NCBI RefSeq assembly: GCF_007744515.1
Contig: NZ_CP036268.1
Span: 1,383,640 to 1,447,639, forward strand
Direction: 5' to 3'
From: Stratiformator vulcanicus
GTDB taxonomy: Bacteria; Planctomycetota; Planctomycetia; Planctomycetales; Planctomycetaceae
DNA: 64,000 nt
Each line of letters begins with the position of its first letter. Position 1 is the stretch's first letter. The notes under the pieces are model-generated. The model saw only the letters and a list, made by a program, of their open reading frames with translations, was not told the DNA's origin and made no database searches. Shown piece after piece: positions 16,483-26,594 of the stretch. Both the position numbers and the translations under genes were made by a program.

Positions 16483-19400
16483 TTGGGGTCCTGTCCGGAG
16501 TGCGGCCACGAACTGACGTCACTGGAAGTGACGACGAGTCGCTGCGCGCAGTGCGGTGCGGATCTGACGAAGCGTTCGTTCGCAAGCGATCACGATGCCG
16601 GGGAGACGAGCGGAACGGTTCAACTTTCCGACGGATCGGCTGACCCCAAAGAGTCATTCGACTCGACTGTCGCCGTTCAACAGCCGGGTACCGATTCCAG
16701 TTCGCCGGCCAGCTCCACCGACCGAAATGTCGGATCCGATACGGCCGTCGTTGACGGCTCGGACAACGACCGAACGCTTGCCCCGAACGATCTCGATTCC
16801 GGAGGAAGTGATTCGGGAACCGTTCATCCCGGACAAGTTGATCCAGGACAAGTAGATCCCGGACAAACGGTAGCGATCAATCCGCGATCGAATAACTCGG
16901 ACGAGTCGCCCGACCTCGGCGCGACGGTGCAACTGAGCGAGACCGATACGTCCACGCCGGATGATACGGGGGCATCGACCGATCTCGGTAAAACAATCTC
17001 AATCGACGGTTCTGCCCGGCAGCCCGAAGCTGATTTCGGGGCCACGATCGTCGAGGGAGACCTCTTTGATGGTGCCAAGGATTCCGATACGCACGAACCG
17101 ATCGGAGGGTCACACGACCAGACGTTGGTCACAACACCGGGGGCAACACCCTCGGACGGTGATCTCGGCAAGACGTTGAGTCTGCGTGATTTCTCGGAGG
17201 AAGATTTCGAAGTCTGGGGACAGGGAGTCACCGCTTATCTCGGAGGAGAGTCGGCTGAACCGGGTTCGAAGAACGAGAAACGGACCGCTAATGTCTCCGG
17301 TCTGAAAGGCGGCCGGTCCGATACGATCTACTCAGGCAAAACGTCGGTCGCCATTCGCGGGGTGACAGGGCTGTCCGGCCAAGTGGTTGACGAACCGGCA
17401 TCGACGCCCGATTACAGCATCGACGGGCGGCTCGGTGCGGGCAACATGGGTGTTGTCTACCTGGCCAGACAGCGGTCGATGAATCGCGAAGTCGCCCTCA
17501 AGACGATCAAGCCCGAGGGTCGCAAGCAGCGGGACCAATTAGATAATCTTGCCAGCGAAGCGATCGTCACCGGCAACCTGAATCACCCGAATATCGTTCC
17601 CGTTTACGATTTGGGACGGGACGATGACGGAAACCTCTTTTACTCGATGAAGCGAGTGGACGGGGTGACGTGGGACGATGTACTTGCCGAAAAAACGCTC
17701 GATGAGAATCTCGACATTTTCATGCGAGTGTGCGACGGGATCGCATTCGGACATTCCCGCGGCGTCGTGCATCGCGACCTTAAGCCGGAGAACGTGCTGA
17801 TCGCGGCATTCGGCGAAGTGCTGGTCATGGACTGGGGCCTCGCGTACGCGACCGACGAATTTCCGAAGCTCGACAGTATCGTCCGCAATGTCACGATGGG
17901 TGGATCGCCCGCCTACATGTCTCCCGAAGCGGCTCACAATTTTCTCGTGATGGGCGGCTGGAAACAGGGCGATACGAAGCCGATCAATGCATCGATCGAT
18001 ATCTATCTGCTCGGCTCGATCCTGTTCGAAATGATCAGCGGTCATCCGCCGCACGCGGGCAAAGACTTGATGGCCTGCGTTGTCGCCGCGTCCGAGAATA
18101 AGATCCGCGACGCCGGGCCGGATGCCCCGGAAGGGCTCTTGGAGATCGCTCACAAAGCGATGGCGGCGGATGCGGCTGATCGCTATCAGAATGTCGAAGA
18201 ACTGCAAGACGCCGTCCGGCAGTACGAACGCAACGCTGAAAGCATTACGCTGACGCTGCGGGGCAATCAGCAGCTTGAAGCGGGTAACCTCGGCCGCGCC
18301 GTCGCCTCGTTCGAAGATGCCGTTGCACTTTGGGACGAAAACGAAGAAGCCCGCAACAAATACGCGATCGCCCAACGTCGACTCGAGCGTCGTCGCTATA
18401 CGACGGCCGCGTTGACCGCGGCGTTGGTCCTCGTGACGGTTGGCGGATTCGGCGGCGTGACGTACCAGTGGAGCGAGGCGGTCGTCGCCAAGCAGGAAGC
18501 GGATCAACAGCGTGAGATCGCCGAAGTCGAGAGACGAGAGGCCGAAGTAGCCGAGAAAAAGGCGATCGCCGAAGAGCAACTCGCCCGCGCCGCAGAGCGA
18601 GAAGCGAATCTCGCCAGACAACAAGCGCAACGCGCCGCCGAAGAGGAAAAGAAAGCCCGTGTTGCTGCGGTGCGGGCCGAAGGCGAAGCCCGACGTGCTG
18701 CCGCTGAAGAGGCGATCGCGAAACGAAAAGCGGAAGAGGAACGGCAAAAGGCCGAAGTCGCCAAGCGAGAGCAGGAGTTCTTAAATTACGTCGCGCGGAT
18801 CAAGCTCGCGAATCAGCGGATCGAAGAAAACGATCTCCGCGAAGCGCTGCGGCTGCTCAACGAGTTAGCCGCCGGGTCGCCGCAGCACTGCGGCTTCGAG
18901 TGGCAACACCTGATGTATCTTTGCAGTCAGGGCAGCGACCGACTGGAACTCGCATCGCCGGTTCTCGCGGTTGACGTCAGTGGAGACGAATCACTGACCG
19001 TCTTCGGTACCGCTGACGGGGCCGTCGAATTGTGGCAGGGGAAAGAGTTTCGCGTTGCGGATGCCCAGCCGATCGCGGTCCGACGGCCGGAAGGACTGCT
19101 CTCGGTTGATGCCGTTGCCGCTTCGAGCGACGGCCTTCTTTATGCCGCAGCGGGGGCATCGCCTTCGGGCTCGCTGTCCCCGATCTTCATTTATGCTCGC
19201 GGCGAGGAACGTTCGCCGCTCAAGCTTGAGCTGACCGACAGCCGGAAAATTCAAACGCTTCGGTTTCTTGCGAACGATTCGCAATTGCTCTCGGCCGGCG
19301 ATGACGGAATCGCAAGAATTTGGGATGTCGAGACGGGAGAACTTCTCGCCGCGACAAAGCCCCAATCGGCGAAGTGGACCGCGACCGACGCGGTGATGAC

Positions 19401-22245
19401 CAGCGACGAAAATTATCTGTGCGTCGCCGGTCTCGACGGCACGGTCGCGATTTTCGGAAAGTCGGGTGCGGGCTCGTCCCTCGAATTGGAACTTCAAGGA
19501 GCTTTTGAGGGACACCGACGATTAGTCCGGTCGGCCGATAACCGTCAGTATCTCGAAGGCGAAGTGACCTGTCTGTCGAGCCTCTCCGACGGCCGCATCG
19601 CGAGCGGCGACGCCGCCGGGCAAGTTTTCATCTGGGATCCGGCCAAAGTCCGTCGGGCGGATCGACTCGATCAGACGTCGGCCATCGACATCGTGAAGCG
19701 GCTCGCGACCGGGGGAGAAGTGGGCGACGTGGCTGACCCGTCCGTTTATCGGTTCCAGGCCCATGATTCTGAAGTCACCGGCTTGTCGACTACGACCGAT
19801 GATGACGGGCGCACGCTCATCGCTTCGGGCGGTGCCGATACTCTGGTGAGAGTTTATCTGCTTGAAGGCGATCCGAACGCGATCGATGCGACGCAGCGCG
19901 TGCTGCTTTCGAATTATCGCGGGCATACCGATGTCGTCACTTCGTGTCGGTTTGACCCGTCGAATCCGTCGGTACTCGTTTCGTGCGGAGCGGACGGCAG
20001 GGTCGTGCGGTGGAACCTTGCCGCCGGTGGTGAAGTTCGAAATCTCCCGGCGGAGTTGACCGGTCACAGCGGCGCGGTGCTCTCCGCGAAGTTTTCGCAA
20101 TCGGGTGACGAAATTGTGACCACCGGCCGAGACGAAGTCGTCACGGTGGTCGATCTCGCCGACCCCGATAAACGGCGTGAGTTTTCCGAAGGTCACGATC
20201 GCTATGCCGGCCTGACGGCTGTCGTTCCGACACCGGACGGCGAATACCTCGTCACGACCGGTTACGACGGCGTGACTCAGGTGTGGAGTGTCGTAGAGCG
20301 GACGCAACGGGCTCGGCTGGCCGGTTTGCCGCGGGAAGGGCGGGAGGGAAGCGAAGGCTTTGACGCATTTACTCCGCTGCGGCCCGTCGTTTCACCGGAC
20401 AGTCGCTGGCTCGTCACCGACAGCGATGCCGATGCCGGCGATCATCGTCTCGCATTCTGGAGCTTGGCCGATGTCGTCGATCCGAAGACCAGTCCTCGGC
20501 CGATCGCGATCATCAGTTGTGAAAACGAGCCGACCGCGGCGGCGTTTTCCGGCGACGGCGAGCGGCTTTATGTCGGCGATTCGGAGGGGCGATGCTATGT
20601 CTGGTCTCGCAAAACAGAGGACCTGAAGTCCTTCGCGGTTCACAGCGGTCGATCGCCGCGGGTGACGGTCATCCGAGAAGTTCCCGACACCGGAAAAGTT
20701 CTCTCGGCAGCCGAAGATTACACGGTCGTTCGTTGGTCGGGGTCAGATGGTCAACCCGATTCGGGTTGGTCGCTCAAGCACCCCGGATGGGTGGAAGAAC
20801 TTGAGGTCACGCCCGATGGCAAGTTCGCCGTGACGACCTCCGGCCCGCGAAATGCAGCCAACGAACTACGCCTGTGGAACCTCGAAACGAAGCAGGAAGT
20901 TTGGAATATCGGACTCAAACAGCAGCAGATTTCTTCGGTATCGATGCGGCCCGACGGTACGCAATTGCTTGTCACAATCGTTCCCACCACGGCCGGTTCG
21001 GGCGGCGGGGCAGTCCACCTTCTCAACACGGAAGACTTCAAAGAGGTTCGATTCGACCCGGAGACGGGGCAGCCTATAATGGTCGGGGAAAATCGCGAGA
21101 CCGTTCCTTTCCTCAATTCCGATCTGTTGGGTGATCGCGTCTTCGCGGCGGCTTTCGGAGCGGACGGCAGAACCGTCTTTACGGCGGGACTCCGCGGCGT
21201 GGCGGTGTGGGACGTCGCGACACGCAGCCGGGAACACGGGGCCTTTCGCAACCCCGGCGAAGCGATCGCCGCCGCATTTACGCCGGACGGAAAACGCATC
21301 GTGATCGGAACCCTCAATGGTTCCGTACTGCTGCTCGACGCGACGACTCCGATGCTCAACGCGACCTTTTCCGCTCAACCACCCAGGGCAACCGGTCGCA
21401 TCGATGCAATCGCCGTCGCCCCGGCTTCTGCGAACGAAGAAGACGAGTCCTACCGCTTCGCGACGGCGGTCAAAGGGGCGGTCGCGTTGCGAACTGTCAG
21501 TCGAAGTCGCCCCAGCCGGTTGATCAGCCAATCGATGTCGCAGTCCGATCCGCTGAGCGATCGACGGATCACGGCGCTCGCCTTTTCGAATGACGGCACG
21601 TTGTTATTCGGAGGCGACGACTCGGGCAAACTCCTCGCGTGGGAAGTCGCCGATGATCGAATTCAGTCGATCAAGCTGTCGGCTCACCCGGTACTGTTCC
21701 GGCACCAAGGGCCGATTCACGACCTGGCCTTCGATTCGACCAACAGACTCGCCGCGTCAAACGATGCGGCGGCAACAAATCCGGCCGAGGGTGACTATGT
21801 CTTCGCGACGGCATCAGCCGATGACTCGGCAGCCGTATGGGTGGCACGACGCAGTGGCGAGTCGCTCTCCGTCGTGCCGATCTCTGTCGCCCGCGGTCAC
21901 GGTGCGCCGGTCACGTCGATCGCGTTTGCCGAACGCTACGACCGGTTGTTTACCGCCGGTGACGACGGAACGGTCAGGCTGTGGGATTGGGATCGGGACG
22001 GACTGAGCAACTGGGAGGTTCACGGCGCAGACAACGATCAGGCTCGATCGAAACCTCAGGGAGCCACGGAACTGCTCGTGCTGGAACGTCATACCGATGC
22101 CGTCACATCGGTCGACTTCGCGGCCCGGCAGTCGCTGTTGCTCAGTGCGGGGGAAGACGGTCGCACGATTCTGTGGCCGGGCGTTGCTCCGCCAACGGCG
22201 AAGTCTGCGGAGTCGGCTCCGGCTGCGGACGGGATCAATCCCTGA
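16483..22245 (+). CDS. Membrane Ser/Thr protein kinase with zinc ribbon and WD40 propeller
   Basis: Start is TTG, after a G-rich stretch. Residues 1-25 form a zinc ribbon (C4, C7, C21, C24). Residues 40-250 are a disordered Ser/Thr/Asp-rich linker with about ten short motifs of the G-K-T-I-S or G-A-T-V-Q kind, plus a 15-base repeat giving DPGQV three times. The kinase domain spans about 311-580: glycine loop GAGNMG, lysine K340, catalytic HRDLKPEN (H430-D432), metal-binding DWG at 450 instead of DFG, and SPE. All catalytic residues are present, so it should be active. One membrane segment (about 640-661) precedes an Ala/Glu/Arg coiled coil (665-770) and many WD40 repeats (about 800-1900), presumably a sensor or scaffold outside the cytoplasm. 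This architecture is typical of planctomycetes. The input signal is unknown. Confidence 0.93.
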   Translation: MGSCPECGHELTSLEVTTSRCAQCGADLTKRSFASDHDAGETSGTVQLSDGSADPKESFDSTVAVQQPGTDSSSPASSTDRNVGSDTAVVDGSDNDRTLAPNDLDSGGSDSGTVHPGQVDPGQVDPGQTVAINPRSNNSDESPDLGATVQLSETDTSTPDDTGASTDLGKTISIDGSARQPEADFGATIVEGDLFDGAKDSDTHEPIGGSHDQTLVTTPGATPSDGDLGKTLSLRDFSEEDFEVWGQGVTAYLGGESAEPGSKNEKRTANVSGLKGGRSDTIYSGKTSVAIRGVTGLSGQVVDEPASTPDYSIDGRLGAGNMGVVYLARQRSMNREVALKTIKPEGRKQRDQLDNLASEAIVTGNLNHPNIVPVYDLGRDDDGNLFYSMKRVDGVTWDDVLAEKTLDENLDIFMRVCDGIAFGHSRGVVHRDLKPENVLIAAFGEVLVMDWGLAYATDEFPKLDSIVRNVTMGGSPAYMSPEAAHNFLVMGGWKQGDTKPINASIDIYLLGSILFEMISGHPPHAGKDLMACVVAASENKIRDAGPDAPEGLLEIAHKAMAADAADRYQNVEELQDAVRQYERNAESITLTLRGNQQLEAGNLGRAVASFEDAVALWDENEEARNKYAIAQRRLERRRYTTAALTAALVLVTVGGFGGVTYQWSEAVVAKQEADQQREIAEVERREAEVAEKKAIAEEQLARAAEREANLARQQAQRAAEEEKKARVAAVRAEGEARRAAAEEAIAKRKAEEERQKAEVAKREQEFLNYVARIKLANQRIEENDLREALRLLNELAAGSPQHCGFEWQHLMYLCSQGSDRLELASPVLAVDVSGDESLTVFGTADGAVELWQGKEFRVADAQPIAVRRPEGLLSVDAVAASSDGLLYAAAGASPSGSLSPIFIYARGEERSPLKLELTDSRKIQTLRFLANDSQLLSAGDDGIARIWDVETGELLAATKPQSAKWTATDAVMTSDENYLCVAGLDGTVAIFGKSGAGSSLELELQGAFEGHRRLVRSADNRQYLEGEVTCLSSLSDGRIASGDAAGQVFIWDPAKVRRADRLDQTSAIDIVKRLATGGEVGDVADPSVYRFQAHDSEVTGLSTTTDDDGRTLIASGGADTLVRVYLLEGDPNAIDATQRVLLSNYRGHTDVVTSCRFDPSNPSVLVSCGADGRVVRWNLAAGGEVRNLPAELTGHSGAVLSAKFSQSGDEIVTTGRDEVVTVVDLADPDKRREFSEGHDRYAGLTAVVPTPDGEYLVTTGYDGVTQVWSVVERTQRARLAGLPREGREGSEGFDAFTPLRPVVSPDSRWLVTDSDADAGDHRLAFWSLADVVDPKTSPRPIAIISCENEPTAAAFSGDGERLYVGDSEGRCYVWSRKTEDLKSFAVHSGRSPRVTVIREVPDTGKVLSAAEDYTVVRWSGSDGQPDSGWSLKHPGWVEELEVTPDGKFAVTTSGPRNAANELRLWNLETKQEVWNIGLKQQQISSVSMRPDGTQLLVTIVPTTAGSGGGAVHLLNTEDFKEVRFDPETGQPIMVGENRETVPFLNSDLLGDRVFAAAFGADGRTVFTAGLRGVAVWDVATRSREHGAFRNPGEAIAAAFTPDGKRIVIGTLNGSVLLLDATTPMLNATFSAQPPRATGRIDAIAVAPASANEEDESYRFATAVKGAVALRTVSRSRPSRLISQSMSQSDPLSDRRITALAFSNDGTLLFGGDDSGKLLAWEVADDRIQSIKLSAHPVLFRHQGPIHDLAFDSTNRLAASNDAAATNPAEGDYVFATASADDSAAVWVARRSGESLSVVPISVARGHGAPVTSIAFAERYDRLFTAGDDGTVRLWDWDRDGLSNWEVHGADNDQARSKPQGATELLVLERHTDAVTSVDFAARQSLLLSAGEDGRTILWPGVAPPTAKSAESAPAADGINP

Positions 22246-22260
22246 TCGCAGTGATCGATC

Positions 22261-23418
22261 TCAATGGAGTTCGGCAAGTAGCGAACCGAATTTCGGATTG
22301 CGAAGTCTCTTCGAGACGGTCCATCCCTGGGTGGTGGCCGTGCATGCCAATTTGGGGCGGAGCCAGATGCCGACGGCGCCGATTGGTACGATCGGTCGAT
22401 GGGTCTGCAACCTGGGGTCAGTCATCCGCTGAATCAGATGCTCGTATTCTTCCTGTCCGATATCCGAGGACGGAACACGTCCGACGTAGACGAGATCACC
22501 TTTGATGACGGAGGCGAGCAGGAGCCAGGAGAAGCCCTCACGACTCGGGACATAGCCGACGATCAGGCATTCGACCGATTGTCGCTTTGGTTCGGCATTC
22601 GTTTGCTCTTCTTCCTCTTCGGCAGGCATCGCGGTCGCCGCGGCGCCCTCGATCGATTCTTCGAGTGAGGCGTCTGCATTCTGTTGTGCTTCCGCGGCCG
22701 TTTCCCGCAGCCTCACGCTGGCCCGCTGACGGACGCCCCAGTCTTCGAAGAGGCTGTTGAAGTCGAGCGCACCTATCAATGTGAGCGCGGCGATGATAGC
22801 CATTAGCGACCACACCGCGCCCCAGAATCGCCAGACACCGTCCGGCAGACGCGTCAGAGTCTCTTTCCAAATCCCGAAGGGGGACAGCAGCAGGTCCAGC
22901 GCGCCGAAGCGGTCCGATCGCCTGCAGGCATGAATGTACGCGGCGACATGAAACGACAGCAGTAGGACGCTGCCCAAGGCTGTTTGTGCGAGTGACCAAG
23001 TCGCCCGGACGGGTGAGTCGATCGGCCACAGCGCGGCCGCTAGTCCGCTGACGAGAAAAATGAACGCGGCACCGAATAGTGCGAGCCAGGCGTATGAAGG
23101 AATGACCGTCCAGATGCTGAGCGGCGTATCGTCTTCGAGGCCTTCCTGCTCACCGCTGAGATCGACCTGAGAGTCGAGTGCGGGATAGTAGCCGCATCTC
23201 GGGCAGAAAGAACTACTTCCCCAAGACTCATGAGATCGACACCCCGGACAGGCGGGCGCCTTGCTCTCCGAGGAAAACCCCATTGGCGGGGCGGATGAAG
23301 CCGCGGAGGCATGCTTCCCGGGATCACCGTGAGAGGAGTGATTGGCGAGCGCGATTTCTTCGAGCAATCGCTCCGTTTCGGCGATATTCGAAGGATGGGT
23401 CGCCACAATCGGCCTCAC
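22261..23418 (-). CDS. Zinc-ribbon membrane protein with DNA-ligase-C-like C-terminus
   Basis: 385 residues with a GTG start. Residues 56-76 carry C-P-G-C and C-P-R-C, a zinc ribbon. Three hydrophobic spans follow (about 101-130, 138-166, 195-220), then an Ala/Glu-rich linker (about 230-280). The last 100 residues read like the C-terminal OB domain of ATP-dependent DNA ligases: a strand CLIVGY, then LLLASVIKGDLVYVGRV, then IWLRPKLA and finally RLRNPKFGSL, in the same order and spacing as LL-G-LVYVGRVGTG, VWV-PEL and GRLRHP-F in that family. No ligase adenylation domain (KxDG) is present, so it cannot seal DNA. It converges on the kinase gene, 15 bases away. Membrane topology is unambiguous; the OB assignment is my inference from motif order. 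Confidence 0.75.
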   Translation of the reverse strand: MRPIVATHPSNIAETERLLEEIALANHSSHGDPGKHASAASSAPPMGFSSESKAPACPGCRSHESWGSSSFCPRCGYYPALDSQVDLSGEQEGLEDDTPLSIWTVIPSYAWLALFGAAFIFLVSGLAAALWPIDSPVRATWSLAQTALGSVLLLSFHVAAYIHACRRSDRFGALDLLLSPFGIWKETLTRLPDGVWRFWGAVWSLMAIIAALTLIGALDFNSLFEDWGVRQRASVRLRETAAEAQQNADASLEESIEGAAATAMPAEEEEEQTNAEPKRQSVECLIVGYVPSREGFSWLLLASVIKGDLVYVGRVPSSDIGQEEYEHLIQRMTDPRLQTHRPIVPIGAVGIWLRPKLACTATTQGWTVSKRLRNPKFGSLLAELH

Positions 23419-26210: not shown

Positions 26211-26594
26211 TCAAGCCGGGGTCGCACTTCCGGTCTGTTCCGGGACAGGCGGGAGCGGGATGTCAGCCGTCGTATTTTGCCCGCGACTGCCGCCATCATC
26301 TGGCCCCAGATGCACACGGTATTTCACGCTCGCAAAACCAAGCTCATCGCCCGGCAGCAGTGCGCCGCGTGTGATTCGTTGGCCGTTGACCTTGGTGCCG
26401 TTAGTGCTGCCCAGATCGCGGACGTAAAGCAGTCCATCCGTCTTGACGATGATGCAGTGCATTTTGGAGACGGCCGCTTGCGACAGAACCAGATCGCAAA
26501 CGTCTTCGTTCCGCCCAACGACGGTGACGTCACTCTCGAGTCGTATTGGATCCCCGTGCAGGGGAATCAACTCCGCACGCATTTGCAGTCGCAC
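26211..26594 (-). CDS. Small FHA-domain protein
   Basis: 127 residues from a GTG start; an in-frame ATG at 26582 would give 123 residues and is equally possible. Almost the whole protein is one forkhead-associated domain, which binds phosphothreonine peptides. The signature residues are all present: GRN near residue 27, the core S-x-x-H (S43, H46) in AAVSKMHC, and LGSTNGTKVNG. A Gly/Pro-rich tail of about 30 residues follows. With no other domain it would work as a cytoplasmic adaptor reading threonine kinases such as the one encoded at 16483. It is convergent with the propeller gene. Confidence 0.92.
   Translation of the reverse strand: MRLQMRAELIPLHGDPIRLESDVTVVGRNEDVCDLVLSQAAVSKMHCIIVKTDGLLYVRDLGSTNGTKVNGQRITRGALLPGDELGFASVKYRVHLGPDDGGSRGQNTTADIPLPPVPEQTGSATPA

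Follow-up and report, generated by a model that had tools for sequence, protein, structure and literature searches.

The question raised by this locus is what a domain strongly resembling the C-terminal part of an ATP-dependent DNA ligase could be doing at the end of a membrane protein. The window, by which we mean the whole 64,000-nucleotide stretch of the Stratiformator vulcanicus genome that was analysed, holds the gene whose parts are collected in Table 1. A preliminary description had proposed that an OB domain of ligase type is fused here to a zinc ribbon and three membrane helices, giving a protein that tethers or senses DNA or RNA beside the membrane. We read it instead, tentatively and a little short of an even chance, as a planctomycete trans-membrane adaptor or scaffold that would reuse a ligase OB of the LigD/LigC type as a non-catalytic binding module.

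Table 1. Features of the gene in window coordinates; residue numbers are those of the encoded protein.
Feature	Window position	Strand	Basis
Whole gene, 385 aa + stop	22261..23418	(-)	GTG start directly behind in-frame TAA-TCA
N-terminal helix, residues 12-26, in weakly conserved tail	23341..23385	(-)	model pLDDT about 70
Cys4 zinc ribbon, residues 55-82	23173..23256	(-)	invariant columns, pairwise identity
Predicted membrane helix 1, residues 108-130	23029..23097	(-)	hydrophobicity and AlphaFold model
Predicted membrane helix 2, residues 136-167	22918..23013	(-)	hydrophobicity and AlphaFold model
Short helices, residues 175-178 and 180-188, in positively charged loop 2-3, with near-invariant W184	22855..22896	(-)	
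Predicted membrane helix 3, residues 195-215	22774..22836	(-)	hydrophobicity and AlphaFold model
Linker, residues 219-278, acidic, part low-confidence, length varying among relatives	22585..22764	(-)	
Linker motif LEESIEGA (family form LEDALxxF), residues 252-259	22642..22665	(-)	
Predicted ligase-type OB domain, residues 279-385	22264..22584	(-)	Pfam, NCBIfam, PDB-sequence profile, AlphaFold, Foldseek, VIA-align
Site of ligase motif VI, residues 371-384 (RLRNPKFGSLLAEL), lacking R-x-[DE]-K	22267..22308	(-)	

The ligase-like motifs that had drawn attention to the C-terminus are all present, at residues 299-315 (LLLASVIKGDLVYVGRV), 352-358 (WLRPKLA), 365-366 (GW) and 371-380 (RLRNPKFGSL). Pfam family PF04679 (DNA_ligase_A_C, the C-terminal region of ATP-dependent DNA ligases) matched the whole protein at E 1.2e-7 with 32.4 bits and the C-terminal part alone at E 1e-8 with 35.9 bits, against a curated cut-off of 27.5 bits, and was the sole Pfam family above cut-off in the protein; the proposed kinship with the ligase C-terminal family is thus significant by profile search. 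The NCBIfam model NHEJ_ligase_lig matched residues 278-382 at E 1.9e-9, yet scored far under its own full-ligase cut-off, as expected because the protein is half a ligase. When a profile of 26 OB domains of the protein family was compared with PDB sequences, three matches fell under E 0.001 (best 1.6e-4), all of them ATP-dependent or LigD ligases. The visibility of the OB domain to Pfam differs among relatives: PF04679 scored above cut-off in five of ten and below it in three, and the other two had no match at E<=1.

Structure prediction led to the same assignment. The full-length AlphaFold model has a mean pLDDT of 81.2 and a pTM of 0.52, with disordered stretches in the N-terminal tail and the linker, and its C-terminal domain lies at pLDDT 92-97 in most ten-residue blocks and at 80 in the last. 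Modelled alone, this domain (about 107 residues) reached a mean pLDDT of 95.4 and a pTM of 0.87, and the top Foldseek match of the isolated domain was M. tuberculosis LigD (1vs0, E 9.1e-6, TM 0.79 by query), with rows 1 to 21 all DNA ligases. VIA-align superposed the full-length model on 1vs0 over 106 residues with Z 13.8, an rmsd of 2.3 A and 24% identity, and the best 50 entries listed were all DNA ligases or ligase complexes. The predicted fold is therefore an OB fold of the ligase type, as had been proposed, and since the ligase-C match is also significant, neither a missing match nor a different fold, the two outcomes named beforehand as speaking against the proposal, was found. A chance motif match was ruled out by Pfam, NCBIfam, the PDB-sequence profile, VIA-align and Foldseek. 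Sequence and model together indicate that the C-terminus is a complete OB domain of an ATP-dependent ligase.

What precedes this domain is not what precedes it in a ligase. Both the sequence and the model have the OB fused to a Cys4 ribbon and three long hydrophobic helices rather than to an adenylation domain, in agreement with the preliminary description. The protein contains no KxDG adenylation motif, and no adenylation-domain model is among its Pfam matches up to E 10. That the protein is a broken ligase whose leading adenylation domain has decayed was rejected, given the missing KxDG and the ribbon and membrane helices that the model has at that place.

Residue losses within the OB itself were counted across 63 aligned OB domains, comprising 47 rows of the present protein family, eight LigD and eight small planctomycete ligases; the family counts are not independent, because close relatives are included and 13 of the rows are one Gimesia-type group. 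The complete motif VI (R-x-[DE]-K) is found in 0/47 family rows and 7/8 LigD, but its absence alone is not decisive because it is also found in 0/8 small ligases. The GxG loop after strand 3, with both G316 and G319, is kept in none of the 47 family rows and in all of the LigD (8/8) and small ligase (8/8) rows. R373 is kept in 4/47 family rows against 8/8 in each ligase group, an R or K stands at position 314 in 19/47 against 8/8 and 8/8, and R294 is kept in 3/47 family rows, 8/8 LigD and 0/8 small ligases. The core residues W352 and P355 are jointly kept in 45/47, 8/8 and 7/8 rows, respectively. In ligases, residues of motif VI change how the ATP beta and gamma phosphates are oriented, according to the available part of PMC6698739, and the OB touches the DNA backbone upon ligase opening, according to that of PMC8656161. 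With these residues gone, the enzyme-specific traits have therefore been lost while the structural core has been held, and the sequence indicates that the protein is not a ligase. On average, the OB segment carries a net charge of +2.8 for the family, as compared with +3.8 for LigD and -2.5 for the small ligases, and in view of this closeness to LigD the domain may still bind nucleic acid. For annotation, the case carries a warning, as a ligase Pfam cut-off is passed by a protein that cannot be a ligase.

The architecture recurs in many planctomycetes, as the survey suggested by the preliminary description revealed. Proteins with this order of parts are present in relatives of the same bacterial family; 19/59 relatives matched, one of them (G053, from another family) having the ribbon and helices without the OB. 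A profile search of 170 genomes of the family matched in 70, and 62 of these were read as carrying the protein; of the eight dropped, six matched only in a long ligase-like frame and two weakly in the ribbon, and seven of the 62 carriers were found in pieces. Across the phylum, 64/392 genomes matched, 20 of them from the same family, and the ten other phylum loci that were read (L043, L044, L047-L054) all had a ligase-like frame matched in the OB only. L043, L044 and L047-L052 are small ATP-dependent ligases of about 300-350 aa with the adenylation motif present but no R-x-[DE]-K of motif VI in any of the eight (L044 in a longer open frame). A scan of public genomes with one ribbon pattern returned 27 loci, all titled Planctomycetota and including Gimesia, Fuerstiella, Thalassoglobus and Planctomicrobium, a result that does not imply absence elsewhere. 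Among more distant ribbon matches, seven regions besides L119 were fetched, and the four with a ribbon protein look like unrelated ribbons. By eye, L116 and L117 have a similar N-terminal ribbon and one hydrophobic segment followed by a cyclase-like repeat region, so that layouts of ribbon, membrane segment and further domain seem common in planctomycetes.

Alignment A1 was made of 18 of 20 picked ORFs (L018, without OB, and L024, a LigD, were excluded), and alignments A3 and A4 of the window protein and 25 of the 27 ribbon-pattern loci (L080 and L081, incomplete, were excluded). At a mean pairwise identity of 0.59, the zinc ribbon is better conserved than any other part of the protein (membrane part 0.33, OB 0.29, linker 0.26, N-terminal tail 0.19). 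Its cysteines are C57, C60, C72 and C75, and its consensus is CPxCGSxExWGxSSWCPxCGYYPxLG. A loose pattern for the linker motif was found in 47/51 distinct ribbon ORFs, with one of the 47 (L012) looking like a chance match. One relative (L015/L077) has about four copies of the motif, as LEDALxxFAGAAGVNxL, and may thus offer several docking points at once. In the OB, positions C284 and C359 are both Cys in 13/26 rows and a lone Cys is found in 11/26.

Where these parts lie relative to the membrane bears directly on function. A simple hydrophobicity scan of the 51 distinct ribbon ORFs gave three segments in 46, one in two, two in two and four in one, and because the number of helices is odd, the ribbon and the OB would be on opposite faces in most members. 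The one-helix form (L045, L046, L079) belongs to Thalassoglobus neptunius and a close relative, and the genus also has three-segment forms. Lysine and arginine are more numerous in loop 2-3 than in loop 1-2 in 46/46 proteins (per residue in 39/46), and the N flank plus loop 2 exceed loop 1 plus the C flank in 43/46, with three ties. By the positive-inside rule, the richer loop 2-3 would put the ribbon and this loop inside and the OB outside. The first-helix charge difference, however, points the opposite way, the N flank being less positive than loop 1 in 24/46 and more positive in 6/46, and the flanks of the one-helix form also point to the reverse orientation. Since the cytoplasm, being reducing, is where one would expect a Cys4 ribbon, we hold it more likely that the OB is on the outer face, probably in the periplasm. 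The free cysteines of the OB are mildly odd for a periplasmic domain.

The surroundings of the gene vary between lineages. In the window it is flanked on one side, at a distance of 16 bases, by a convergent gene for a 1920-aa protein kinase with WD40 repeats (window 16483-22245), and on the other side by a divergent GDP-mannose 4,6-dehydratase gene. The start of the kinase (MGSCPECGHEL...CAQCG) has a stretch of Cys pairs resembling another zinc ribbon, and a small 127-aa FHA-domain protein (PF00498, E 3.5e-18) is encoded at window 26211-26594. In 3/26 anchored stretches (L072-L074) a kinase gene is codirectional with it, 82-83 bases upstream, as opposed to the convergent arrangement of the window; two of the 27 fetched loci (L059, L067) had no anchor, as the simple gene caller chose an overlapping frame. 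No cluster of neighbours occurs in more than seven of the 28 compared stretches, and reading a function from gene neighbours was rejected, there being no conserved operon. In 8/59 genomes (G011, G014, G015, G016, G017, G022, G034, G039) this protein is the sole PF04679 match. Promoter and terminator scans of the locus gave nothing of note above shuffles.

Regarding the origin of the domain, a tree of 63 OB domains, LigB-type ligases not being among them, has LigD as one group and the small ligases as one group. The rows of the present family need two changes, and a single origin appears in 12% of bootstrap trees. A LigD/LigC-type ligase most likely supplied the OB, the tree singling out no one donor, and the family may have a single origin.

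How the protein might work can be proposed from these parts. The ribbon, in the cytoplasm, would dock a cytoplasmic partner and serve as the main docking head because it is the most conserved part; the helices would anchor it in the inner membrane; and the OB, reaching out on the flexible acidic linker with its short conserved helix motif, would bind a partner on the opposite face. Such an adaptor would hold one partner per face and join no DNA. The parts, the fold and the loss of catalysis come from sequence and model, while the sides and the partners are what we infer. Against this reading count the gene context, which names no partner, the charges flanking the first helix and the single helix of the one-helix form, the cysteines of the OB, and its net charge, which is near that of LigD and fits nucleic-acid binding. 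In another picture, which we consider doubtful, the freed OB would be the part of a membrane receptor that holds nucleic acid, tying the compact planctomycete nucleoid to the membrane or catching DNA outside it, and the ribbon would relay its state across the membrane. In the inner version, which takes up the tethering idea of the preliminary description, the OB would lie in the cytoplasm, still grip DNA or RNA and anchor the nucleoid or transcripts to the membrane. Ligase OBs do contact the DNA backbone, as far as the available parts of PMC8656161 and PMC6698739 go, and the near-LigD charge, the conserved free cysteines and a first-helix charge difference favouring an inside C-terminus are all consistent with it. 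On the other hand, the conserved basic and loop residues of the OB are mostly gone (R294 in 3/47, R373 in 4/47, GxG in 0/47) and the Cys4 ribbon would be placed outside, making this version unlikely in our view. So, while the OB, ribbon and helices of the preliminary description hold, its tethering or sensing of DNA or RNA is as yet unsupported, the ligase-specific OB positions being lost or relaxed. The outer version, with the OB holding extracellular or incoming DNA and the ribbon as its inner contact, agrees with the predicted topology and can be set beside Lig E, a complete ATP-dependent ligase whose predicted location is periplasmic or extracellular and which is tied to biofilm in the available part of PMC10799422. 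The same OB residue losses weigh on it, no competence gene was recognised among the listed neighbours as judged from sequence starts only, and the literature search gave no link, so we rate it lower again. Taken jointly, nucleic-acid binding inside or outside has a probability of about one third.

Two further explanations were weighed and appear very improbable. An accessory of bacterial end joining (Ku/LigD), with the OB as a decoy or ligase partner, would suit an OB that is most like NHEJ-ligase models. Ku is present in 28/170 genomes of the family and in 8/62 carriers, where about 10 would be expected by chance, and it had no match in the window's genome, which keeps a different, real ATP-dependent ligase (551 aa, KWDG motif present). 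The presence of the protein is not linked to Ku, and a partner in end joining is disfavoured by these counts. A decaying, functionless ligase relic, which would account for the missing catalytic parts, is equally hard to credit, as the frames are open, the ribbon cysteines invariant and the OB folded across very diverged relatives.

This leaves the two-faced adaptor as our preferred proposal for an architecture that is unusual and new and built from known domains. We found no paper on a planctomycete protein joining a ligase OB, a zinc ribbon and transmembrane helices, which is weak evidence of novelty, as reports may well exist elsewhere, and papers joining DNA_ligase_A_C and transmembrane had unrelated titles. 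The protein offers a clear case of a membrane protein that has taken over half of a repair enzyme as one of its domains; it is retained across a large share of one bacterial family and stands alone in the genome. Planctomycetes are known for condensed nucleoids and folded membranes, and nucleic-acid binding by the OB, if it persists, would give these bacteria a physical connection from DNA to membrane. Should the OB bind a protein, it would illustrate how a fold that gripped DNA comes to take another target.

Among known systems, the C-terminal OB of LigD (PF04679; 1vs0, 6nhx, 6nhz) shares the complete OB fold and the order of the core motifs, while the present protein differs in being a membrane protein with a ribbon and in lacking the adenylation domain, the R-x-[DE]-K of motif VI and the GxG loop. 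The small planctomycete ATP ligases (about 300 aa; LigC-like is our own label) have both Cys positions conserved in most and give the top family-profile scores of any ligase OB among the scored loci (63 to 89 bits versus 56 to 58 for two LigD), and motif VI is degenerate in them too (0/8). Unlike the present protein, they have an adenylation domain and the GxG loop (8/8), and no ribbon was seen in the sequences read. Lig E is alike in having a ligase-derived OB predicted outside the cytoplasm, where its ligase domains would act according to the available part of PMC10799422, but it is a complete ligase with a leader peptide and is not anchored in the membrane. NfeD is likewise a membrane protein ending in an OB, though of a different OB family; no NfeD model was among the Pfam matches at E<=10, where HMMER filters drop weak matches, and no flotillin neighbour was recognised in the window. 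The membrane-anchored OB of NfeD binds a protein partner, holding flotillin (NfeD-FloA), in the available part of PMC11222466, and by analogy NfeD may serve as a precedent for a membrane-anchored OB acting as a protein-binding module.
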